Positions 12,034 to 46,500 of a DNA stretch of 64,000 nucleotides are shown piece after piece. Made by a program: the position numbers and the translations under genes. A model generated the notes under the pieces. It made no database searches, was not told where the DNA came from, and saw nothing but the letters and a program-made list of their open reading frames with translations. The stretch's first letter is position 1. The number at the start of each line of letters is the position of its first letter. This stretch comes from Lampris incognitus (lineage: Eukaryota; Chordata; Actinopteri; Lampriformes; Lampridae). Location of the stretch: positions 55,021,457 to 55,085,456 of the forward strand of contig NC_079215.1 in the NCBI RefSeq assembly GCF_029633865.1. The letters run 5' to 3'.

Positions 12034-13497
12034 ACCTAGATCAAACCTCCATCACTGAATACAACTGGTCCATCGCCAATCTTTAAATGATCAGAACGAG
12101 TTACAATCGGTTGATATAAGAGGCTGGAATTCCACACACACACACACACACACACTTTAACCTCAGTTTCCGTGGCATTGCTGGCGACCGATACACTGTA
12201 GCCCACACCTAAACCAACACACATTCTCTGAGACCATCTCTGAATCATACTGACCCATGACGTCACATCCTGTCCAAAAATGTGTGTGTGTGTGTGTGGG
12301 GAGGGGGGGGGTTAGGAGGATTATTACTCATTTTACTACTAGTTGAATGGTTTGCAAATGAGAAAATAGTGTAATGATGAAATATGCATATTCACCCGGT
12401 AGTAAAATATGCAGTCTGTGTCTAACTGGAAGATATTTTATATCGTTTGCAAACCAGGAAGGTCTTGGCCAGCAGCTGCAGCAACTATTTTGTAATTATA
12501 AATAAATCATGACAATAGACAAATATCAACGCCCCCCCCCCAAAAAAATTGGCCCGTTAGCGATCACGTGTTTTTGAATCGTTGAACGTCGCCCCCCCCC
12601 CCCCGGCCGTTTGCGCGCGTGTTGTGCATGACGAGGCAGTAAATGGTGCGGTCTCTCCCGCGTGACTTTTTTGAGCTGGAGTCCAAAACTTGTAACTTTT
12701 TAAAACAACTTTAGCCTCCAGTTTAGACCGAAGAGGTCACTTAGATGAGGGATGAAACCGCTCTCTCGGTGCACGTTGCAGCCTGATGAACCGATTCCAC
12801 TTTTCTTTCATTTTCTTACTGAGCATGCGCAAAGACGTGGAAAGCGGCTTAATTCTTGTTTAGGGTATTTATTTTTGATTAAATACAGTTAAAATACACG
12901 GCTGAGTCTATTTCCGGGCGGCTGGCTGCCGTTCAAATCTGTGAAACGCAAGAGCAGCGGTGCGTCGCCTCGCCTCCGTACCGCCAGCGTGTGTGCATGG
13001 TGCCATCTAGTGGCCGAACACTTGCACTTCACCTTTTTTTTACGTTGACACAGATAGGTGGCTTTTGAAATCCTGATTTACGTTGGAAAATGCAACGTCA
13101 CTAAACGGGAGCTTTAATGTGTGTGCTACTAAAGAGAAAAACTGCATTAACTTGCAAAAAAATAAGGAACAGCAAGGAAACATTTAAACGTTAAGTTGCA
13201 GAAAAAGTTGCAGTGATTGCCATGTAAGTTTGAACCTAGCAGGATTCATCGGGACATGGCACGGCAGTCTTCAAGATGAAGATGATATATGAGAATAAGG
13301 AGCATGACAGCAGCAAAGTATCCGCACATCTCAGAATATTATGTGGGCGGGGCGGGGGGCGGGGGGTGATTCAGGCAATAAAGGTTTTTTTTACAGAGAA
13401 CAGAAGATTTAAAAACTATAACAATAGAACATTTGCATAACCATACAATAGACTCTGTTGTAAGGTGCATGGATAAGTAGACACGCTGGCTGCTGGC
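12034..13497. other. Intergenic, no gene seen
   Basis: Contains (CA)n at 12133-12155, (GT)n near 12281, poly-C runs near 12530 and 12590, and at 12728-12810 a fragment related to the hairpin repeat of 57481-57656 (GAAGAGGTCACTTAGATGA). Nothing else is recognised. Confidence 0.45.
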
Positions 13498-14128
13498 TGG
13501 CGGGTCTGACCCTTTAGTCGAGCGGTTAGCGATGCCTCTTGCGGTGCGGGCGATACGGGTTCGCTTCCCGGCCGCGGCAGTTCCTGTGGTTACGTTGTCC
13601 CCCGAATTCGCTGCACTATTGTGCGTGAGAGGAGGTAGTTGGTCTCTACTGTGGCTAGTCTCCATTGTTGTAGAGAGAACTCACACGGATGGCGACGCGA
13701 ATTCACCTTTGCTGCGGCCTCACCCAGTACCGTCCATGCGGTGTCGTTGTCCACGTCCGCATTTAAGTTTTGTCTTCGTTTGATGATCTGCCGCCTCCTG
13801 TGGGCCCAGGGACCACGGCCCTGCCTGGAGCTGCACCCGAGGAGGAAACACCGAGGGCGGTCTGACAGGACGCGGAAGCGGGGCAGGCTAAGCTAACTGC
13901 TAGCCTATGCAGACCGGCAGGTCCGACCGTCAGCCTGGCTGGTGTTCGTTCCCTTGGACGGTGATTTTTCTTTTCTTTTTAAGTTTGGCTATAGGTGTTA
14001 GTTTAGATATATGTGTTCTTGAAGTTCTTGTAGTTTTGCACTGCTGGGGGGGAACGAATTTCGTTTCATTTCATGTACTTCCGTACTGCATGAAGTGAAA
14101 TGACAAATATAGTGTTCCCGATTCCTGA
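13498..14128 (+). repeat. tRNA-headed long repeat
   Basis: Begins with a tRNA-like head (CTTTAGTCGAGCGGTTAGC, then GGGTTCGCTTCCC), continues with a CG-rich body containing GCGGCCTCACCCAGTACCG, and ends in a tail containing TTTCGTTTCATTTCATG. Parts of the body recur at 16036-16505, and the head is related to the LTR-like units at 21.0-28.7 kb. Confidence 0.55.
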
Positions 14129-17229: not shown

Positions 17230-18441
17230 ACACTAATAAAGTGTTCCTGATTCCTGATTCCCGCCTTCTGCATTTTAATGACTTTGTTCTTGCTTCAGTA
17301 TTGTAAAGATCACGGATGACTAGGCTCGGTAGCCCTTTAATCGACTGTTTAACGTAGTTGTTTACGGTGTGGGAGCCACGGGTTCGCGTCCCGGGTGCGG
17401 CGCTCCCCGAACTCCCCACAGTATTCTGCTCCTTCGTCTTCATTTTCTGATGGAGCTCGCGCCCGGCTAATGAACTTTACAGAGAGTGCTTTTTATACCC
17501 ATAAACGAGACCGTTACTTTAATGTCTTACAGGTGCACACTAATTATGCCCAGTTGTGTTTACCTGAGTAGGGATAATTTGTCATTTGTGTAAACTTGGA
17601 GCTTTCAGAGCACGAGGGGCTGAATACTTCAGCACTATATCTTAGTTTTTCATTTATTAATAAAAAGTCACTGAAACATCGCTTACTTAGACATTGGGAA
17701 CACGCTGTTAGAGCTTATGGGTTCACAAAAATAATATTGTTCAACAGCAGATGTGTGAGTATCTTTTATAATCCAGAAAGGGGTGATGACTGTCAAGGGG
17801 GATGAATACTTTTGCAAGGAGCTGTATCTTGCTCTCATCCACGAACCCCTGTGTCTGTTCTCCAAGCTGGGGGAAAGACAAACAAACTGCTTTACACCTA
17901 CATGAAAGGAGGAAAACATCTTGCCATTTCACGGGAAATGTCAACATTTTTGCTATTTGCAGGATATGTTTCGAGGACCAGATGATGATGTGGGTGGCAT
18001 TGGATTAGCATGATGTCGTCATAGGCACCAACTCCAAAGCGGATGAGAATACAGTCTTATGATACATGTTTAAGGATAGAAACTGTGAAACTCTCCATCC
18101 ACAGCAATTACTGAGGTGGGCCTAACAATGTTAATGGCAGTATGTCATATTTTGCACTCTTCTGATAGAGATTTTCACTTTCATTTATAACAAATAAATG
18201 GAGGGCTGTAAGTCTGGTTTTTGAATGCCAAAAAGCATAGAACAGAACAGAAATCACGGATTTTAGATACTCCCTTACTGATCATAGAGGTCACCTGAAA
18301 ATCAGAAATCATTGATTTTGACCATAAAAATATTGACCAAATTATACTCTGAAAAGTCTTTTGGACCACTATTGCTTTTCAAAGGCACCATAAGTTATGA
18401 ATATATTTTGTGAAAAAGTAGTACTGTTATTGTGTTGTTTC

Positions 18442-21010: not shown

Positions 21011-21145
21011 TGTAACCGGTTATTTTCTTGCCCGGTGCGGGATTCGATACGGGGTGTACTGCACCACAAGGCGACATCGCTAACCGCTCGGCTAAAGGGT
21101 CAGACCCGTTAGCTGGGGGCTAACGTGTCTTATTAGTAGTTTACA
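21011..21145 (-). mobile_element. LTR-like unit with tRNA-like boxes, solo copy A
   Basis: A 135-bp unit, read on the minus strand from TGTAAACTACTAATAAGACA to AACCGGTTACA. It contains an A-box-like TAGCCGAGCGGTTAGC and a B-box-like GTATCGAATCCC. It is flanked on both sides by CTTG (21007-21010 and 21146-21149), a possible 4-bp duplication. Not a functional tRNA gene: no cloverleaf is evident. Confidence 0.65.
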
Positions 21146-21659: not shown

Positions 21660-23880
21660 TAAAATTCAAGTTTCTTCAAAAAGAAATTGTAGCATACTAA
21701 CCGTATGACCACATTTCTTATTATTTATAAGTTGGATAGACTCAACATGTTTTCTGAATTCAGTCCTGAAAGGCTCAAACGATGGGCCAGACCCCGAGAC
21801 CTTTGCTTTATGGGTATGGTGTTTCCCCCGTAGGATTAATAAGCTGACAGTCTGCTGAACTTTCTGGTTTTTGTTTTCATAATATAATACTACATCCTTG
21901 GCTTCCAGCTTAATTGAATGATTGGTTTGAGCAACAAAATAATCCTCAGTTTCCCCCCCCCCCAGAATCCTGCTGTGTACTGATATGCATAAAATAGATG
22001 TTTGATATCCAAAGGAGTTGAATCTACCAAGTCCACTTGCACTTGATTCAACTCCTTTGGATAACCATGACCGGGATGAATGAGAACATTCACAGACATA
22101 GATGTTTGATAGTTTCTTCTTCATTTTTATAGAATTCACAATTGATGTCGATATTCACAAATCTTGAGATTGTTTTGTTGATGGGATCAAAATGGTGTGC
22201 AATTTTGCAGTGCACTTCTTTCAGTTTGTTGGGGATAACAAATGTTACATGGGAGAAGCCGTACCATTTCCCAACGAATATTAGAAAAATGGGAGTTCCA
22301 CACAAATTTCCCTCGTGGAGTAGTTTTCCTTTTGCTGTAGAAATGGTTCCTAATATGTTTATTAGTACATTTGTGGCTTTTGATATCTATTCCACCAACA
22401 CCAACAAAGATCCAATTCCCATGGCTCTTGCCTCTCAGCATGGCATTTCATCAGCTGAAGGGCTCCACTAGGAATATCATTTATGACCGTTTGATTTTCT
22501 TTATAAGTGACAGGAAAGGATTTAGATCTGAGAAATTCCTCATATCCGAGAAGTTGAGTGTCGTCATTTTGTAAGCCTGCAAGAAAATTTATAATCCTAT
22601 CAACTCAGTGTTGCAGATATGGCGATTTATTCTTTCTGATTATGTATTCATTGTTCCAGATAATAGTTTTGTGAGGAGAGAAGTTGTGGTTAAAACATAA
22701 TTTTGCTGCCGGACAACTTTTGTGGTAACTTGGTTTCATTATAATTACATTGTAATATAAATTGCAGGCCTCCCATTTTTCCAAAAACATTCTGCGGTAT
22801 GGAGTACCATAAGGATTCTGGAACTTTCAAATAATCCGTTTTAATTTGAAGTTATAGTTCACATCCATTAAGTCCAATATCTCCATGCCACCTTCACCTC
22901 TCAGGCCTGCTAAAATTTCATTTTTTAAGTGATGGCACTTATTTTTCCAAATAAAATTAATTAAAGTGTTATTTATTTTTTTACAGGGGGATTGTTGGAT
23001 AACTAGAGAGAGGGTAGGGTAAACACATCTAGAAATACCACCGGCTTTACTCAATAGAACTCTGCCTAACAAGGACACATCTCTTTGAAGACATACTGAA
23101 TAAGGTTTTTGTTTTTTTGTATTATTGGTTTAAAGTTATTGTCTTGTCGTTCATTAAGCTTTTTAGAAATATGGATTCAAAAGTATTTAATACTTTTTTT
23201 AGCTGGTATATCACACATTAAAGTTTCCTCGGTGCTATACAAACTTGAGATTTCACATTTTGATACGCTGAGTTTTAAGCATGATGCCAGAGAGAATGAA
23301 TGTATCTCATTGATTGCTTTCCCAATTTGATGTTTGTTTGTTTGTTTGTTTGTTTGTTTGTTTGTTTTAAGGGCCGTGTCATCAGCTAGCTGAGTTACTC
23401 TGATCTCTCTCAAAAATCCTTAAACCTTGATAATTATGACAGTGTAGAATATGTATTGAGAGCAATTCCACCACTATAAGAAATAAAGAAGGACAACTGG
23501 GGCAACCTTGGCGGACAGATTTGTGAACCGAAAATCTTTTCGGAAATAGCATCACAATGTTGTAGCGAATTCGGAGAGACTATCGCCACAGCCGGGACGC
23601 GAACCCGTGTCTCTCGCTCCGTAAGCGACAACGTTAACCACTCGACTAAAGGGTCAGACCCATTGGTCAAGGGCTAACGTATCTACTTTTTCGTGTATGT
23701 TACAATATCTTTTATAGAGTATTCTAACAGTGGAGAATTTTTTTTTTTTTTTTTACCAAATCCAAAAGTTTGAAGTCCTCTAAATAGGAATTGATACGTC
23801 ACTGTGCCTAATGCCTTGTATAGCCGGTTATTTTCTTGCCCGGTGCGGGATTCGATACGGGGTGTACTGCACCACAAGGC
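21660..23880 (-). pseudogene. L1-like LINE, decayed pol 3' half
   Basis: Read from high to low coordinates: GTVTYQFLFRGLQTFGFG (RT), then QLADDTAL (RT catalytic ADD, near 23390), a thumb-like part SLLGRVLLSKAGGIS...INNTLINFIWKNKCHH (about 22830-23075), then a C-terminal part at 22100-22440. Frames are broken and repeats are inserted (a (TTTG)n run at 23331-23366, a tRNA-like unit at 23575-23690 and copy B at 23819-23954). Motif wording fits fish L1/Tx1-clade elements. Confidence 0.75.
23575..23690 (-). repeat. Variant tRNA-like unit inserted in the LINE
   Basis: Shares the start of the LTR-like unit (ACGTTAG...GGGTCTGACCCTTTAGTCGAG) but has a different B-box half (GGGTTCGCGTCCC) and an end reading GAATTCGCTACAACATTG on the minus strand, which resembles an LTR end followed by a primer-site start. 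Confidence 0.5.
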
Positions 23881-23954
23881 GATATCGCTAACCGCTCGGC
23901 TACAGGGTCCGACCCGTTAGCTAGGGGGCTAACGTGTGTTTTTACTAGTTTACA
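23819..23954 (-). mobile_element. LTR-like unit with tRNA-like boxes, solo copy B
   Basis: A ~136-bp copy of the unit at 21011, flanked by CTTG on both sides (23815-23818, 23955-23958). It interrupts the RT region of the L1-like LINE, so it is younger than that LINE. Confidence 0.65.
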
Positions 23955-24067: not shown

Positions 24068-24578
24068 TAAGTTGTGACGTTACCGTTGTAAGGTTCATGT
24101 AGCACAGTAACTCGAGTCTATCTGTAGTTTATGACTTGCGTTGTTTAGTCAATGTTAAGTGTATTCGTTGTGCCGCTGTAATGTCAGAAAAAAAACTCGT
24201 TTCAGCAATTAGCCTGGTCCGAAACTAGCCGCGCTAAGTGCTAAGCTAATCGGCTAGCTTAGTTAGCGCGCCCAGTTAACGTGATTTCGGTGTGTTATTG
24301 TGACAACGGTGGTTATTGCTAGTGTAACCTATTTTTCTGGCCTTAGCCTGTTAGTGATTTTAAGTTCCTGTTATAAGCTGTCGCCACAGTATATGCCTTG
24401 AGCTCTTATTTTGAAGGCTGAAGAGAGAGCGGAAGTGCTGTACGCGGTGTTGTTGCTGGGGCGTTCTGTTGGGGGAAGAATCCAAATAAAGTGGTCCTCG
24501 TGTGAAAGTGGAACCTCCGTATTTGTTATTTTATAGTGTCATACAGTATAGGCGACATCTGCAAACCCTCGGTTACAT
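24068..24578 (+). mobile_element. LTR of a Ty3/gypsy-like retrotransposon
   Basis: Ends CTCGGTTACA at 24578, directly followed by TTGGTGGCAGCGGTGGGA, the form of a primer-binding site. AATAAA at 24486-24491 would be the LTR poly(A) signal. The 5' edge (TGTAAG) is only a guess from the TGTAA...TTACA symmetry. No 3' LTR was found, so this is a remnant. Confidence 0.6.
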
Positions 24579-24783
24579 TGGTGGCAGCGGTGGGATGCTT
24601 GTGCCAACGTCCCGCAAAAGAAACGTTTAAATGACCGAAAGGAAAGGCTCGGAGAGTCAGTTAGCTTCTCGGTTAGCCTCAGCTAGCAACGCCGGAGCTT
24701 CGTCGTGTCGGAAACCCGGCGCGGTGTGTGCACGAAGACTTCACTCACTTTGCTGCTGTCTTCTGAGATAATTGAGGAGCAAC

Positions 24784-25256
24784 ATGTGGAAATACGAGGA
24801 TCCGCTGGGCTATAATGACAGAGAGCGACGTGGAGAAAAGCCGTTCGCCAGCAACGTGAGGATTGATCTCCCGCCGCCATTTTCCGGGGAGGGAAAACAA
24901 AGTTTCCCCTGCTGGGCCAGACAATACGAAGTGGCGGTGAAGGCGCTGGTTGGAGGCACTGGCGATGACTTTGACTATGAACTGGTGAGGATTTTACCAA
25001 CGCGTCTAACAAAGGCTGCTTTTCTGCTATGGGATAGCTTGCCAGCTGCCGTTCAGGCGGATTACGCTAAGGTAAAGGAGAAATTGCAGGAGGCTTTCGG
25101 ACAAAGACATTTTCTTGACTGTTTCAGAGCAAACCTCTCTGCCCGCCTCCGTGCTCCCGGAGAGAGTCTGGAAGTCTATGCAGAGAACGGTCAACTGAGC
25201 ATGCGCGAAATGCCTCTACCATGCCTCCGCACGCCCCGCGTAGCATCCAGGCGCTA
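24784..25256 (+). pseudogene. gag fragment of the gypsy-like element
   Basis: Encodes MWKYEDPLGYNDRERR... with a Gag/Arc-type capsid stretch (FPCWARQYEVAVKALVGG, LPTRLTKAAFLLWDSLP, KVKEKLQEAFGQ). The open frame is cut after about 130 residues by the foldback MITE at 25179-25394, and no protease or polymerase follows, so the element is dead. Position just after the LTR and primer site supports the call. Confidence 0.7.
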
Positions 25257-26995: not shown

Positions 26996-27155
26996 TTTTT
27001 CCCCGACCCGCATTCCAGGAACTCTGCCTCTGATTGGCTAGTACTCGTTGCCTCCGTTGATTAGATTGGTTAAGGTTAGGGTGGGGTTATAGGGTTAGCC
27101 AATCAGAGATAGAGTAGGGGCGGGTTTTCCCGGAATCCAGGTGGGAAAAATAATA
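26996..27155. mobile_element. Third copy of the telomere-like-core MITE
   Basis: Same core as at 21259 (CTCTGATTGGCTAGTACTCG, TTAGGGTGGGG, GCCAATCAGAGATAGAG) in the opposite order, with weaker outer ends. Confidence 0.55.
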
Positions 27156-27400
27156 ACGCTTCTAAATGCAAGATAGTTGCTAGAACGGCGGCGAGAACGG
27201 CCGCTAACAAGCCCACGCCTGCTGCCACGCCCCTTACATTTTGTCAAGGCCGCGCCTTACCGGAAGCTATGCTCTCTCCCCATCCTCCTCCGTAGTGAAA
27301 CAAACTGGAGATATAGCGAATCACCTTGTAACGCGGAGAGAGCTTTTTAAAACATTGAAAATGGATGTGCCGAGTAACGTTAGATCATTTGATTCAGTTT

Positions 27401-27535
27401 TGTAAACTACTAATAAGACACGTTAGTCCCTAGCTTACGGGTCTGACCCTTTAGCCGAGCGGTAAGTGATGTCGCCTTGTGGTGCAGTACACTCCGTATC
27501 GAATCCCGCACCGGGCAAGAAAATAACCGGTTACA
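27401..27535 (+). mobile_element. LTR-like unit with tRNA-like boxes, solo copy C
   Basis: Exactly 135 bp from TGTAAACTAC to GGTTACA, on the plus strand, flanked by GTTT on both sides (27397-27400 and 27536-27539), a clean 4-bp duplication. A box TAGCCGAGCGG, B box GTATCGAATCC. Confidence 0.7.
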
Positions 27536-27872
27536 GTTTTATCGAACGTGTGCTCAGTCCACAAGATTGGAGCAATTAAGGATTTACAGCGGCTTTGTTT
27601 AAAACGTTTAACCCAGGACAAGAAAGTTGTGTTTGCTTGTTTACCAACTGGTTATGGGAAAAGCTTGGTCTAGCAAGCCTGGCCAACTGTCTAAGACTTG
27701 TTGTCCGCACAGGGACAGAAATCTATGGTGCTGGTCATACGCCCCCTGCTGTCGATAATGGAGGAGCAGGGGCAGTTTTTGAAAGCTAAAGACATTCCTG
27801 CCGCATACACGGGACAACGCGAGGACGTCGATGACCAGGTTGCCGCTGGTGATTTCGCCCTTGTGTTTGGCA

Positions 27873-28949
27873 CCGTTACGTTTCACGAATGAAGACCAGA
27901 GGCCAGTGTAGCGAAACCCAAAAGGACAGACAGACAACAGAGCACCGGGATAACCCGAAGGGCGATTTAATGCAGGGAAGAAAAACAAACAAAACTGCCA
28001 CAGGGGATAATGACAGGCGAGTCTCAGATGGGCGTTGTTGAGACGATGTGCGCCTGGCTACCAAAGTCCGAATCCGTGGAGCAAGGGGTTGTCCGAGGAA
28101 GTCCGGGTCCGAGATCCAGGAAGTCAAGTCCGAATAGGAGGGGTCCAGGTAGAGAGACACGGAGGGAGATCGCTGGAGAGGTCCGGGGGGGGGGCGTGAA
28201 AGTCGCTGGGGGCGAGGAGCGAGGGAGACGCGGGGAGCCGTGGAAGTCGCGGAGGGAGAGTCCTGGGAGGGAAAAAGAGAGACACAAATATAGACACAGG
28301 TGTAACCGGTTATTTTCTTGCCCGGTGCGGGATTCGATACGGAGTGTACTGCACCACAAGGCGACATCACTAACCGCTCGGCTAAAGGGTCAGACCCGTT
28401 AGCTAGGGACTAACGTGTCTTATTAGTAGTTTACAGTCGTCACCCTCCCCGGAAGCGCGCCCTCGCGCTTGTTCTTCCCGCGCTCCGAAGAGACTTCTGA
28501 GGATCTGCACACTTCCGGATCCCACCAGTGCCACCGGTTATTTTCTTGCCCGGTGCGGGATTCGATACGGGGTGTACTGCACCGCAAGGCGACATCACTA
28601 ACCGCTCGGCTAAAGGGTCAGACCCGTTAGCTAGGGACTAACGTGTCTTATTAGTAGTTTACACTGGGAATAAACGGAATAGCAAGAGGGCAAGGAACGC
28701 TGCAGGGCTTGTCAGAGCTTTACCACAGGGTTCAGTACGTCGAAGCACAGAAAGGTTCTGTGAGGCTTCTTGTAGAGGGCTGCCTGATTGCCGCAGGTGC
28801 GCCTGATAGATGATGGCAAACACCTGGTGCAGCGCAGCGCTCGTCTCCTCAGAGCGCGAGCCGAGCGCTCGGATGTTTCCGGCACGTCCGAGCTGGGGGA
28901 GTGGCTTGAACGTGCCGGGGAGGCAGCTCGGGGCGGTGTAACCACAACA
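27873..28949. mobile_element. 1.08-kb insertion splitting the helicase relic
   Basis: Joining the sequence on either side restores the reading ...VFGTPETF..., and GGCA is present on both sides, so this segment came in later. It contains no recognisable protein, apart from the nested LTR-like pair at 28301-28663. Family unknown. Confidence 0.5.
28301..28663 (-). mobile_element. Putative TRIM-type miniature LTR retrotransposon
   Basis: Two direct copies of the tRNA-like unit (28301-28435 and 28533-28663) flank 97 bp. On the minus strand the internal part starts with GGTGGCACTGGTGGGAT, like the primer site at 24579 (GGTGGCAGCGGTGGGAT), and ends in the purine tract GGGGAGGGTGAC just before TGTAAAC of the second unit. 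Flanks CAGG and CTGG could be a mutated 4-bp duplication. The first unit lacks its last bases, explained by a deletion between two GGT repeats. No coding capacity. Confidence 0.6.
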
Positions 28950-29659
28950 GGCACACCAGAAACTTTTGTTGGCCAAGCAAAGTGGAGACGGCTTCTAAAA
29001 ACACCGTTATTTCCGGAGCGGCTGGTTGGAGTGGCTGTTGACAAAGTACACACTGTAGTGCAATGGTGAGTTTGAAACCATAATTAATGTTAGCTCGCTG
29101 ACTGTGTATTGTTTGTCTAGTTTTCTTCGGTGACTGCGTCTGAGCCATCCTATAACGCAAGTGTTGCTGGTAGACAGTGTTTACAAGCACACGACTTCTG
29201 CGTGTCGCCGCCCCAATGTGACGGACCCGCCCTAAAGATTTTGGATTGGTTCTGCAATTAACTTCTTTTTTTTTTTTAACTCTAACTGTTTCCACCCAGT
29301 TTTAGCAACGAAAGCTGGGAGAATGTCCTGTCTCTAGAGGGGCGAAGCGTTTAGAGACTGACTTGTGAGTCTAAACCTACACTACTACACTACTGAACCA
29401 GTCTAAACCTACACTACTACACTACTGAACCAAACTCTAACATCACCCTCCCTTCTTCCCCAATCACAATAAGTGCTCCTCTCCACAAAACCCCCAATAA
29501 ACTCTTCTTCCCTGACATAACTATACAACAAGTGACTCTCTGAATGCATGACCCATCACACCTTGAAGTGAAAGGGCTACAGCAGCAGTACAGGAAAATG
29601 AGCTACCGCATGCATGGGATCACCAAAACTGGACAATTGAAAATTGGAATAAATGTCTC

Positions 29660-33813: not shown

Positions 33814-36800
33814 ATGCTGAAGTTTTTCGTCGTCTGCACGCTGGCCGTGGCCAGCAGGGCTGAGATCGCGGAGGAGGAAGACGTCCTGGTGCTGAAGAAA
33901 AGTAACTTCGACGAGGCGCTGGCAGCCCACCCCAGTATCCTGGTCGAGTTCTGTGAGTGTCTGGCTTTATGTCGCCTATTCCGCCCCGGCGGCGAGCTTG
34001 GTCGGCTCGTCAGCTCGAACGGCTCTTGTTCACATTTTAAAGACCTCTTTAAAGTCGCTGCTGGGCGGGTTTGCGTCGGAGCGATCGCTCCCCCCTTCAG
34101 CAGCAGCGCCTCTACGGCGGAAGAGTTTGCTCGCCTCGGCGTCTTGTGTGTAACCTCCCGGGCGACACGCGTCCCCTAGTCGAGCTTGTTCGAGAAAACG
34201 TGCCCTGGCCACGAAGCAGGCTGCCTAGCGTGGGGTTCGCCACGGCCCTGTCTGCGGCTTAGACACGATCGACTCGCCTTTTGTGCATCACGGTGCATAA
34301 TCGGTGCTGAATGGGCCACTACGCTATGCGGTCCTGCCTTCAGCTGCGTCCTGTTGATTTGGCGTTGGCCACGCTTCTTCTTCTGCTGCATTACTTGGCC
34401 CCCCACCACCCCCCCCCCGCAACTGCGGGCCAGTATGTCGAGGCCACGCTTGGTTTGCACACTGGAGGTGTTGTGTGCATTCGGGCTCCCACGATCACGC
34501 CAAGACGTCCTAATTTGCGTCTAGACTCCAGTCGCCGGTGCGGAAAGTACCTTCCCCCCCCAAATAAGGTGTGATGAAACGTGCCCTCGGCGCGTGTGCA
34601 CGGCGCGTGCCTCGCTTGACCGGTGTGGTTTCCTTATCCGTCTTAGGGGGGGGGGGTTCGTTTTTTGCTTACTTTTATTTCCCTTCAAATTTACAGCTCA
34701 CGCCGGGGGATGTGTAATCTACAGCGTTTATTACGCTCTAATCTAAATCTGGTCCAAATATTATCCTCCTCTCTTGGAGCTTTTTCTTTTGTGATTTCAT
34801 TTGATGGGGGGGGGGGGGCAGTTTTTGTTGGTAGCCTACAGGCCTCCGGCCCCCCCCCCCCGACAACTCTTGTCAAACTGTTGACCCAGTCACAGGTTGA
34901 ATGACAAGCCCGCGGACCAGTTAGACTCGTCTTTGAGTAGCCTTCTCCAGTGACCGCAATAGGGGCGGGTCAAAGTCTTTGTTTCTCAGCGGGCGGGGCG
35001 GGACGTGGCTGGGGGTTGGTTGGATGAGGCGCTAGGTCGACGTGTACTTGACCAAAAGTTTGTGATGTCGGAGGAACAGGGAAGCGTTGGCCCCAAGCAA
35101 TTAACGTGTTGTGCCCAACTCCACCATAGATTTGATGGCAGTAAATCATTTGAATTATTTCTGCTTACTTGGCTCATATTTGTGTAGCTTTCCATCATTG
35201 CTTGCATCCGATAACTGCCCCCAACCTACCACCCTAATTATCAAAAACATGCCTATGCTCTTTAAACATGTTGGTGTGTCCATAGCCCTTGCAGGTTCTC
35301 TGTGCATCTTAATCCTTGCGAGGTCATTATGAAATGGCTTGTTCTGTGAAAGTTACACGAACCATGGAGCTCGCCATTTATTACTTGGCTTCATTTAAAC
35401 ACACCCATGTCTTCATTGAATATTCACCCTCGTGTGCTTTCGGGATTTACACCACTAACAAACCAGCTCTGGTCAAGTCAGACTTATTTGTATAGCCCTA
35501 AATCACAACCGGGTCCCCGAGGGCTTTACAATCTCATTATATTCTCATTCTTTGTTTGAATGGAATACATTTACAATGAGCGTCTGACTTTCTCGCTTAC
35601 CCAGGCAACGTCAAACCCAACTTCTATTCTCTGATGTTAAAATTTTTGTGTGTTGTCTTCTCTCTTTCTCTTTAGATGCCCCGTGGTGTGGTCACTGTAA
35701 GGCACTGGCCCCTGAGTATGCCAAGGCTGCTGGCATGCTGAAGGCAGAGGGGTCTGAGATCCGCCTGGCTAAGGTTGATGCCACCGAGGAGACAGAACTA
35801 GCCCAGGAGTACGGCGTCCGGGGATACCCCACCATCAAGTTCTTTAAAGGGGGAGAAAAGGAATCCCCTAAAGAGTACTCTGGTGAGATGTGTCTTATCC
35901 CCCCCCCCCTTTTTAATCAGAATAGATGTTGGTCTGGATTGAAGGGTGGGGAGGAGGGGGCTGAATGTGAGAAATTAATTCAAACCCAAAACCAAAGGAT
36001 GTTGGTGGCTATAAGTGGTGCCTATGTCTTGTCTCTACTGGTTTGTAGGGTGTTTGCCGCCACACTTGTTTTTGATTTACTTCTACTTACATCAGTAGGG
36101 TAAATAAATATTAAAAGTTTTAAGCTCTTCAAGATGAATATTCAAGAGTCTGTCAAATCAGTACATAAAGTATCAAATTTGACATTTTTTGAATCCAATT
36201 TTTAGCGCTGGAAAGACCCTTAGTGGTTTATTTATTTAATCAGGTAAAACCTTTTGTCATTTTTTTCCTGTTAGACTACCTTGCCCAAACCCTTTTGGCT
36301 TACTTTTTCCTGGTAAAGTGATTCGCATAGGCGCAGTAGTTGCTCCGCCAGTGAGATTGTCAATTCAGACCCATGTGACTATGATGAAATGTGGGCGGGG
36401 CCTCTACACATTCTTACTATGCCCTCTGCCCAGCCTGGCTGTTGGATGTGCTGTTACTCACGTTCCCTCTTCTCCCCGGAGACTGAACTTAAGTCTGAGC
36501 GGAGAGAGGGTGGAGAGAGAAAAAAAAAAAGAGGGAGCCTTTTTTGGAAGGTTTACGTGACGAGGATTGCCTGGTTTCCAGTGCTTTCTACTCTCCTACT
36601 CCTGCTTAGGGCTAAAAGTATTGCATTTAACAACAGGACCACAGGTGGACATCACTTGGCCGGCTGTCTGGTTTTAAGTGGTCCGCAGTGGAGTTGCTGC
36701 CGTCTTGCATCATTGGCTCTGTTTTCTAACATGCCGGTGGCGCTGAAATGACTTAAGTTAGTCGACAGACTTTTAATTAATTATGATTTCATTATGGATT

Positions 36801-43500: not shown

Positions 43501-46500
43501 AGCACTGTGAGTGCATGTGTTTTTAGTGTTCGAGGGAATTATAGGGAATAATAACTTTTTTATCTTTGGTATCAATGCAAAGTTGTGCCATGTTGTAGAC
43601 CTAAATAAATGTGTACCATGAGTTCATCACATAGCTACATGGTCTTAACAGTGAAGATGTGACATCACTGTGTAAAATACTTCTGTATATTAACAAGCTC
43701 TTCTCCCAACAGCCCCACCTCATGAGCCAGGACATCCCTGATGACTGGGACAAAAACCCTGTCAAGGTTCTCGTTGGCAAGAACTTCGAGGAGGTCGTCT
43801 TCGATCCCGCCAAGAATGTCTTTGTAGAATTCTGTAAGAAGCCTTCTCCTGTCTCTTCAAAATGTCTTCATGTACATGTTTGTCTGAATGACCAGAGAGC
43901 CATTACAGATCTTCCCATTAGAAAATCGTGATTGTTTAAATCCTGGTGTTGCTAGGGTAAATTGTCTGACCTTTCAATGGGCCGATAATTTTCTGGCCCC
44001 TAGCTGGATCGCACCTCATCGGTAAAAGCTTTGGCAGTGGCCATCTCGAGGGTCTGAAACTTCAGTCTCGGCCTTTCTTTCTTTACCCCTCCACAGCCCT
44101 CTGCAGATACCCAAGAGGTGGTATACAAGGGGCAGGTTCATGCCGTTTTGGCCAATCCCCATTAATTAAATTAATCTGCCACTTTTAAACGTGCCAAAAA
44201 CATCAGGTTAAGTCTAGTTGTTGGACTATTTTATTTAAAGCAATCCACATCTGATTTTACAACCATCAAGAATTTTTCCATTGCTGAGCTTAATGCTACC
44301 CAGGTTCTGTCGTGCAATGAGTGAGTCCTACACATTGGTGGGGCACCTGTACAGCTGCAGGTGGATCTGGGGCAAATGGTGTGAGCCTCAACATGCATCT
44401 TGTTCCCCTGGAGAAACTTGCAGGTGAAAAGCAGCAGTCAGTGACTCCATGTGTATCGGAGGATGCACGTGGAAGTCTATAAACTCCCCAACCAGCAATG
44501 GTGGAGAACGGGGGATTGCCAATGCCGAACATTGGCAATTTACCCCTCCCAAAAGAAAACAAAATATACAATGAGCCCCGCCTTCTAGCCATTTAAGAAG
44601 CTTTATCATTTCTACATATATGTAGAGATGATGTATTTTGTTTCTATATCAAACAATGTGATGGCTGATGTCTAAGCTTCTTAGATTTGGTGTATCTAAC
44701 AGTCTACATTTCTTGAAGTTATCAGCCCAAGGCTATTACTTATTAAGAAAAAAAGTAATTATAAAATGGCTTCTAAACTTTAAATTGTTTTAAACTGAGC
44801 TGCAGAACACCAAATTGTTCCTATCCTATCTTGAAGAACCAATAGATTGCTATCAGAAAAGGCCGGATGATGAGAGATAATGAATCTTACACTGCATGTG
44901 TTTTTTTTATTATTATTTTTTTAATTTCATATCTAAAAATCCATATGCATGCATTTATTTTGTTAACTTTATTTCCACCCACTCTTAGCCTTTTTATATT
45001 TTCTTGCCCCATTGTAGATGCACCCTGGTGTGGACATTGCAAGCAGCTGGCCCCCATCTGGGACAAGCTGGGGGAGAAATACAAAGACAGCGCTGACGTT
45101 GTAGTGGCTAAGATGGACTCAACAGCCAATGAGATTGAGGCAGTAAAAGTCCACAGCTTCCCCACACTCAAGTTCTTCCCTGCAGGAGAGGAGCACAAGG
45201 TGAGTGTTCTGCCGTGGCGTTATCGACCCATGACTCTGAAAACAGCCTCTGTAGGACTTAACCACTCCTGCAGGAAAGAGTGGAATATTTTCCACATTGA
45301 GTCCACTACTCCCAACTTGGTAACTTCAAACTTGGGCAGACATCTGAGCAGGCCTTCCCTTTAGAAGAGAAGCCCTCACTAGAGTCGAGGTCAAAGTCTT
45401 GACACATGGTATGACCTCATATAGGATCTTTTGATTTTCCTTTCTTTTAATCTATGACTGCTCATCTTCCCTGTTGACCCACAGTCTTTCTTCTTCCTGT
45501 TCAATATTTGCTTCTCTGATTTCATTACATGCTGTTGAAGGTGCACATTAAGATGATAGTGGGTATTTTGATCTACGTAAGTAATTGCCATACGATCCCC
45601 CCTATCATTAGGACCTCTTGATTTAGCATTGCCAACCTCGTTTCAAAAACTGAGCCTGCCTGCTAAGTTACTCCACCATTGTGTTAATGTTTTGATCACC
45701 ATCTAGATCTTTACTGATGCCTATTTGGAGTCCTGGAATGCCCCCCTTCTCACCCCCACAGCATTCCTCTTTGTTGCCCTGGTGTTCCTGTGCCAACTCT
45801 TGTTTTTTTGGGAGTCGTGGGAGGTCTCTGCATAGGACCCAAAATGCACACCTAATTGGGGGGCTATGTGTTGGGGCTACTTCCATCATAAGGCTGAGGT
45901 TCAGCTCATTACCCTTTTTAAACCAAGCATGCAGAACACTAGGGAGCCAAGGCGGCCGGCAGCTGCATGAGTGGTCACAAGATGTTGGTTGTCAGATCAT
46001 TAGGCCGTGTCAAATTAAATAATTTTGGTTTGGAGGCGGAACGCTATGACTGTCCTCAGTACAGTCTCAAAGGCTACCCTGTTTTAACGTCTGGACATTT
46101 AACAATCATACCTTTTCAGACTTCTCACGTTCTCGCTGTTTTTAGATCACCAAATAACTGGTGCTAACGCTTTGGTTGTCAAGCCTTAAAGGTTATTGGC
46201 AATTTTTTTTAGGAGGGGGGGGGTAAATGCATAAATCACCTTTTTCGCCCCATTATGAATCTTGTTATTGATCAGTGAAAGGGGGCAGGTAATGCAGGGG
46301 GTGAATTTTGTAACAAGTGGATCTCTATTACTATATATCTATTTCTATATATAAATCTAAACTGTATATTTGTGTGGGGGTTTGGTTCTGCATAAAGCTG
46401 ATTTATGTGCCATTAACTAGACATAACATCTTATCAACAGGTTATCGACTACAATGGTGAGAGAACACTGGAAGGCTTCACCAAGTTCCTGGAGAGTGGT

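Follow-up and report, generated by a model that had tools for sequence, protein, structure and literature searches.

The closest described counterparts of the element analysed here are the Helenus TRIMs of fungi, animals and one plant, which include zebrafish LTR-11_DR (Kojima 2024, Biology 13:119, PMC10886601). Helenus elements are mostly shorter than 1000 bp and carry tRNA-like A and B boxes in the LTR, a primer site and a purine tract; animal members make 4-bp duplications, vertebrate members use tRNA-Leu, -His or -Lys as primers, tandem arrays occur, and LTR-11_DR is present as 5575 LTRs and 2618 interiors (PMC10886601). A Gypsy helper of animal Helenus was inferred there from primer-site similarity, and for Cassandra the same study states that nothing indicates which element is its autonomous partner (PMC10886601). 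Cassandra is likewise reported to combine a small-RNA promoter within a TRIM LTR with tandem arrays, the promoter being of 5S rRNA type and the hosts plants, whereas the present element is of tRNA type and from a fish. According to Sabot and Schulman (2007, PMC1950507), complex LTR elements arise by template switching, two parent elements being fused during reverse transcription and then inserted; those are large plant elements, unlike the fusions described below, in which a Gypsy LTR is joined at the primer site to a TRIM with tRNA boxes.

By its structural features, the TRIM at 28301-28663 of the window (the whole 64-kb stretch of DNA that was analysed; Table 1) is a Helenus element: it is 363 bp long (below 1000 bp), non-coding, and has A and B boxes in the LTR, a primer site, a purine tract, 4-bp duplications and relatives in tandem arrays. 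Where Kojima (2024) relied on primer-site similarity, the hybrid insertions found here connect the TRIM with a Gypsy family of its own genome. This helper evidence is new; the TRIM itself is a new member of the Helenus kind. A preliminary description, made from the letters of the window, knew of no described fish family of this form; the zebrafish and other fish members of Helenus (PMC10886601) correct it on that point. Its account of the architecture was accurate, with exact outer coordinates: two direct repeats of about 135 bp surround 97 bp and are 98.5% identical over 131 nt on the minus strand, the TGTAA starts lie at 28663 and 28435 and the TTACA end of the 3' LTR at 28301, and the interior opens with a primer-site-like sequence and closes with a purine tract. 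The former is the family site shortened by 9 nt, GGTGGCACTGGTGGGAT being the usual junction AACCGGTTACATTGGTGGCAGCGGTGGGAT less those bases, and the latter, GGGGAGGG, is separated from the 3' LTR by seven bases (TGACGAC). The flanking CCAG and CCTG form a 4-bp duplication with a single difference, and no protein family was found in the open frame that overlaps the interior.

Table 1. Features of the TRIM, its relatives and the candidate helper (window coordinates; CCAG and CCTG in element sense).
Feature	Position	Strand	Remarks
Whole TRIM, 363 bp	28301-28663	-	LTR with both boxes, remnant of the primer site, interior containing the purine tract, second LTR
5' target duplication, 4 bp	28664..28667	.	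CCAG
5' LTR, 131 nt aligned	28533..28663	-	terminal bases gone with the 9-nt junction shortening
A box TAGCCGAGCGG, 5' LTR	28602..28612	-	0 mismatches to TRGYNNARNGG
B box GTATCGAATCC, 5' LTR	28558..28568	-	2 mismatches to GGTTCGANTCC
Shortened primer-binding site GGTGGCACTGGTGGGAT	28519..28535	-	usual family form TGGTGGCAGCGGTGGGAT
TRIM interior, 97 bp	28436..28532	-	overlapping open frame without protein family
Purine tract GGGGAGGG plus TGACGAC	28436..28450	-	precedes 3' LTR
3' LTR, 135 bp	28301..28435	-	TGTAA...TTACA
A box TAGCCGAGCGG, 3' LTR	28374..28384	-	0 mismatches to TRGYNNARNGG
B box GTATCGAATCC, 3' LTR	28330..28340	-	2 mismatches to GGTTCGANTCC
3' target duplication, 4 bp	28297..28300	.	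CCTG, one change
Solo LTR, same family	27401..27535	+	GTTT/GTTT duplication
Older solo LTR, same family	23819..23954	-	CAAG/CAAG if the end is CTATA, by eye
Solo LTR, same family	21011..21145	-	CAAG/CAAG duplication, read by eye
LTR, related tRNA-box TRIM family B	13459-13615	+	
LTR, related tRNA-box TRIM, E-type	about 17302-17409	+	
LTR, related tRNA-box TRIM, C-like	about 23560-23704	-	
Decayed Ty3/Gypsy copy	24323-25185	+	LTR, primer site, gag-like start
Candidate helper LTR, 255 bp	24323..24577	+	TGTAACC...CGGTTACA; AATAAA and four T-runs
Helper primer-binding site	24579..24596	+	identical to the usual TRIM site
Gag-like start of the decayed copy	24784..25185	+	134 codons open

A genome-wide search for the repeat unit and for paired copies with short duplications, proposed in the preliminary description, was made in 1.48 Gb on 537 contigs, and the unit proved to belong to a genomic family. 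At least 42 matches to the window TRIM were found at 93-100% identity, 41 of them covering the full 363 bp (scores were taken for 40 of 2,027 first-look candidates), and a 38-nt junction word spanning the LTR end, primer site and interior start occurs 2,430 times at up to 2 mismatches, against 0 occurrences of its reversed control. LTR-spacer-LTR copies recur across the genome, their LTRs being 77-100% identical; of 46 LTR pairs, 24 show a spacing of 237 bp. Perfect 4-bp target duplications flank 35 of 53 TRIM ends and a further 11 differ at one base, where 1.8% perfect matches would be expected by chance (flanks paired between different loci); these ends, which include solo LTRs and arrays of three or four LTRs, were drawn from the first 68 loci with duplicates removed, 10 more groups with no recognisable end being left uncounted. 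A random sample held one TRIM LTR in 50 kb, of which 5,000 bases were N (5 of 60 drawn stretches), too few for a copy-number estimate, and the TRIM count in the flanks of sampled loci is biased and was left out of such reasoning. One locus (L013; G000:C18, around 34249889-34250465) consists of four LTRs and three interiors with CTAC on either side; in another (L032), upstream of the TRIM interior, a different sequence that carries a B-box-like motif, GTTCGAATCCC, has taken the place of the greater part of the 5' LTR and leads into the usual LTR end.

The paired copies, the 4-bp duplications, a primer site that recurs, the solo LTRs and the tandem arrays of LTR-interior-LTR units support the conclusion that window positions 28301-28663 are one gene-less, LTR-type TRIM and a member of this family, as the preliminary description had proposed. 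It had also named a chance double insertion of an ordinary SINE as the reading to exclude. The tRNA-like head is the one feature that such a pair would explain; against it stand the recurrent LTR-interior-LTR structure, the presence of a primer site, and a TTACA end followed by the duplication instead of a fixed tail. The paired-LTR copies genome-wide and their duplications rule it out, and we regard it as wholly improbable.

The tRNA-type boxes noted in the preliminary description are present in both LTRs, the A box matching exactly and the B box departing at two positions from what we take to be the respective consensus sequences, TRGYNNARNGG and GGTTCGANTCC. The possibility of a tRNA gene inside the LTR was dropped, since neither ARAGORN, run in bacterial mode on the window and five loci, nor Rfam (window 27000-29200) gave a tRNA match. 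Seven tRNA-box TRIM insertions lie in the 64-kb window, four of family A (that of the window TRIM) and one each of family B, a C-like type and family E. Copies of LTR-interior-LTR form occur in family B too (TGTAACGTGC...GAATTCGCTACA; 40 of 1,942 candidates scored), and their primer site is a different one (L033, L076, L080 and L083). When eight single sequences were aligned and compared by eye, with no statistic attached, the block at the A and B boxes was the most alike across families, and the boxes reappear in related families whose sequences differ at most other columns. The B boxes of family B, the window C-type copy and family E contain GGTTCG; that of family A is 2 off consensus, and the A box of family E is degraded. 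An inverted repeat, GGGTC-t-GACCC, lies directly upstream of the A box, at the expected transcription start (window 28615-28625 and equivalent positions); in the form GGGTC(t/g)GACCC it is common to families A, B and C and absent from D and E.

The exact junction AACCGGTTACA-T-TGGTGGCAGCGGTGGGAT is present at 26 of 51 distinct TRIM junctions, with variants at the others. The 18-nt site TGGTGGCAGCGGTGGGAT presumably pairs with the 3' end of tRNA-Leu, which we take it to match. The 9-nt shortening of the window copy recurs at 4 of the 51 junctions, a 9-nt gain is found at one and a different 9-nt loss at one; given these losses and the gain, the primer site appears to slip, as its internal repeats would allow.

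When 74 sequences (328 kb) were scanned, this primer site was found outside TRIM copies at one place, window 24579, within a decayed Ty3/Gypsy copy whose 27 nt at 24570-24596 (LTR end and primer site) are letter-identical to the TRIM family junction. The gag-like frame of this candidate helper had no match in Pfam and is multicopy: scoring of 150 among 318 candidates gave at least 131 matches, a figure that counts fragments as well. Reverse transcriptase was recognised in one Gypsy copy (L088; Pfam RVT_1, E 1.3e-19) and an integrase zinc domain in another (L084; Integrase_H2C2, E 7.2e-16); the latter seems to have lost its reverse transcriptase, because nothing within 2.5 kb matches the corresponding stretch of L088. 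A protease match directly before the reverse transcriptase is weak and below cut-off (E 0.08); together with reverse transcriptase motifs read by eye and 4-bp duplications it fits assignment of the helper family to Ty3/Gypsy. What connects TRIM and helper would be the primer site and the LTR tips that both possess, and not resemblance of the LTRs as a whole.

A junction word comprising the Gypsy LTR end, the primer site and then CCGG, of which only the last four letters are TRIM-specific, occurs 202 times at up to 2 mismatches (control, 0), and at least 81 exact Gypsy-LTR/TRIM junctions are among the 100 of the 202 matches that were listed. The TRIM interior continues beyond the junction at all four places read further (L020, L086, L087 and L093), and most of the 202 are probably hybrids. 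The three complete hybrids, L020, L086 and L087, are bounded by a Gypsy LTR on the left side and by a TRIM LTR on the right. In L020, selected for its likeness to the window TRIM interior, a Gypsy LTR with its primer site (94.7% over 283 nt) precedes a TRIM interior (100% over 87 nt) and then a TRIM LTR, with CGAT/CGAT flanks provided that the last LTR base has changed (TTACG instead of TTACA). L086 (TTAA/TTAA) and L087 (ATGC/ATGC) are two of three gag-less Gypsy LTR places chosen blind to the interior; in the third, L085 (G000:C2:118179405-118179604), the Gypsy LTR and primer site precede an interior unlike that of the TRIM or the window Gypsy, perhaps another element with the same Gypsy LTR. 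The locus C1:119003914 is a hybrid array, with a pure TRIM junction 238 nt beyond the hybrid one. The converse arrangement, a Gypsy helper LTR behind the TRIM purine tract, was discarded: the TRIM purine tract followed by the Gypsy LTR start gave 0 matches at up to 3 mismatches in a search run without a positive control, and the hybrids seen therefore have the Gypsy LTR at the left only. Compared with 58 pure TRIM pieces, the hybrid interiors depart from the majority at 10 (L086), 14 (L087) and 2 (L020) columns, and the single variant common to any of them, between L020 and L087, is also found in 2 pure copies. The lack of a common variant set favours, on small numbers, repeated origin of the hybrids, and simple self-copying is unlikely because their two LTRs are unlike. 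Among 40 scored places with a Gypsy LTR and primer site (from 530 candidates, three partial ones having been dropped), at least 18 have the junction with no listed gag, at least 9 gag only, at least 1 both, and 12 neither; the comparison covers 60 of the 131 gag matches (those with the gag start) and 100 of the 202 junctions, and the counts are lower bounds. Our search of titles and the beginnings of abstracts of openly licensed PMC papers found no description of Helenus-Gypsy hybrids.

During reverse transcription of LTR elements, plus-strand strong-stop DNA, once transferred at the primer site, serves as the template for the left LTR. We consider it probable that the present element is a Helenus-type TRIM with a tRNA-like LTR promoter that is packaged by the Ty3/Gypsy element, the hybrids arising through transfer at the primer site. 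Pol III would most likely initiate close to the 5' LTR's A box and read through the interior and 3' LTR; the RNA would then enter particles of the Ty3/Gypsy element whose primer site and LTR tips it shares, take the 3' end of a tRNA (probably tRNA-Leu) as primer and be converted to DNA, whose insertion would leave the 4-bp duplication observed at the copies. Within the particle, DNA made up of the Gypsy LTR and primer site would sometimes switch to TRIM cDNA by way of the primer site common to both, and the product would be inserted as a hybrid bounded by the Gypsy LTR on the left and the TRIM LTR on the right, the form seen, with its duplications, at three loci. Gypsy strong-stop DNA landing on TRIM cDNA would yield exactly this hybrid, and plus-strand transfer likewise predicts that no purine-tract/Gypsy-LTR junctions occur. 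The shared junction and the hybrids thus support the Gypsy family as putative mobiliser of the TRIM. An extended version, which we hold to be evenly balanced, is that Pol III TRIM and Pol II Gypsy RNAs are frequently co-packaged, with repeated intermolecular plus-strand transfer giving a Gypsy LTR to at most about 8% of TRIM-interior junctions (202 of 2,632 sampled) and leaving some Gypsy copies with a whole TRIM unit before gag and both promoter types.

Use of the boxes by Pol III is a prediction from their sequence, and they could instead be a relic in an element that Pol II transcribes, from a weak LTR promoter of its own or by read-through, and that owes its mobility to the same Gypsy. The missing tRNA-model matches and the two B-box mismatches would suit such a relic, which we nonetheless think unlikely, given that the boxes recur among divergent families, that the window TRIM lacks AATAAA, of which the window Gypsy LTR has one, and that its sense strand, interior and 3' LTR included, contains no T4 run, against four in that Gypsy LTR. 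Post-insertion recombination between neighbouring genomic copies, for which the tandem arrays and tight clusters of copies present in the genome would offer the opportunity, is disfavoured as a source of the hybrids and seems to us very improbable: the 4-bp flanks match at all three, the junction shares only 27 nt, and the polarity is one-sided, with 0 junctions on the reverse side.

A further reading, doubtful in our judgement though one to be taken seriously, derives most hybrids from Gypsy copies in which a TRIM unit is embedded, so that a primer site, the TRIM interior, a TRIM LTR and another primer site lie in this order between the Gypsy LTR and gag. Primed by a tRNA at the second of these sites, synthesis back to the Gypsy 5' end would copy the TRIM LTR and interior and so produce the hybrid with no intermolecular transfer. 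The distance from Gypsy LTR to gag is 701 at two places as against 462-464 at seven, an excess of 237, equal to one TRIM unit (at a tenth place it is 481, the gag match beginning at residue 7). In the 60 nt of L093, a shortened TRIM interior and the start of a TRIM LTR follow the Gypsy LTR end, 378 nt before gag, and gag lies 398-461 nt beyond the junction in at least 6 of the 100 junctions listed. In a few Gypsy copies, gag thus seems to be preceded by a whole TRIM unit. However, such embedded copies make up a small share of the listed junctions (a lower bound, 60 of 131 gag matches having been used), the three hybrids compared have no variant set in common, and an embedded copy itself presupposes an earlier TRIM-Gypsy exchange. 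Under the preferred reading, transfer between co-packaged templates, hybrid insertions would be the footprint of shared reverse transcription and would reveal a helper by sequence alone; the same search is applicable to every Helenus, Ajax and Cassandra family.

Elsewhere in the window, thioredoxin domains (Pfam PF00085), at two places, were the only domain matches among the eight longest open frames; the frames concerned, 35588-36100 and 44846-45361 on the plus strand, are probably host exons. A 32-bp unit is perfectly duplicated in tandem at 29368-29431.
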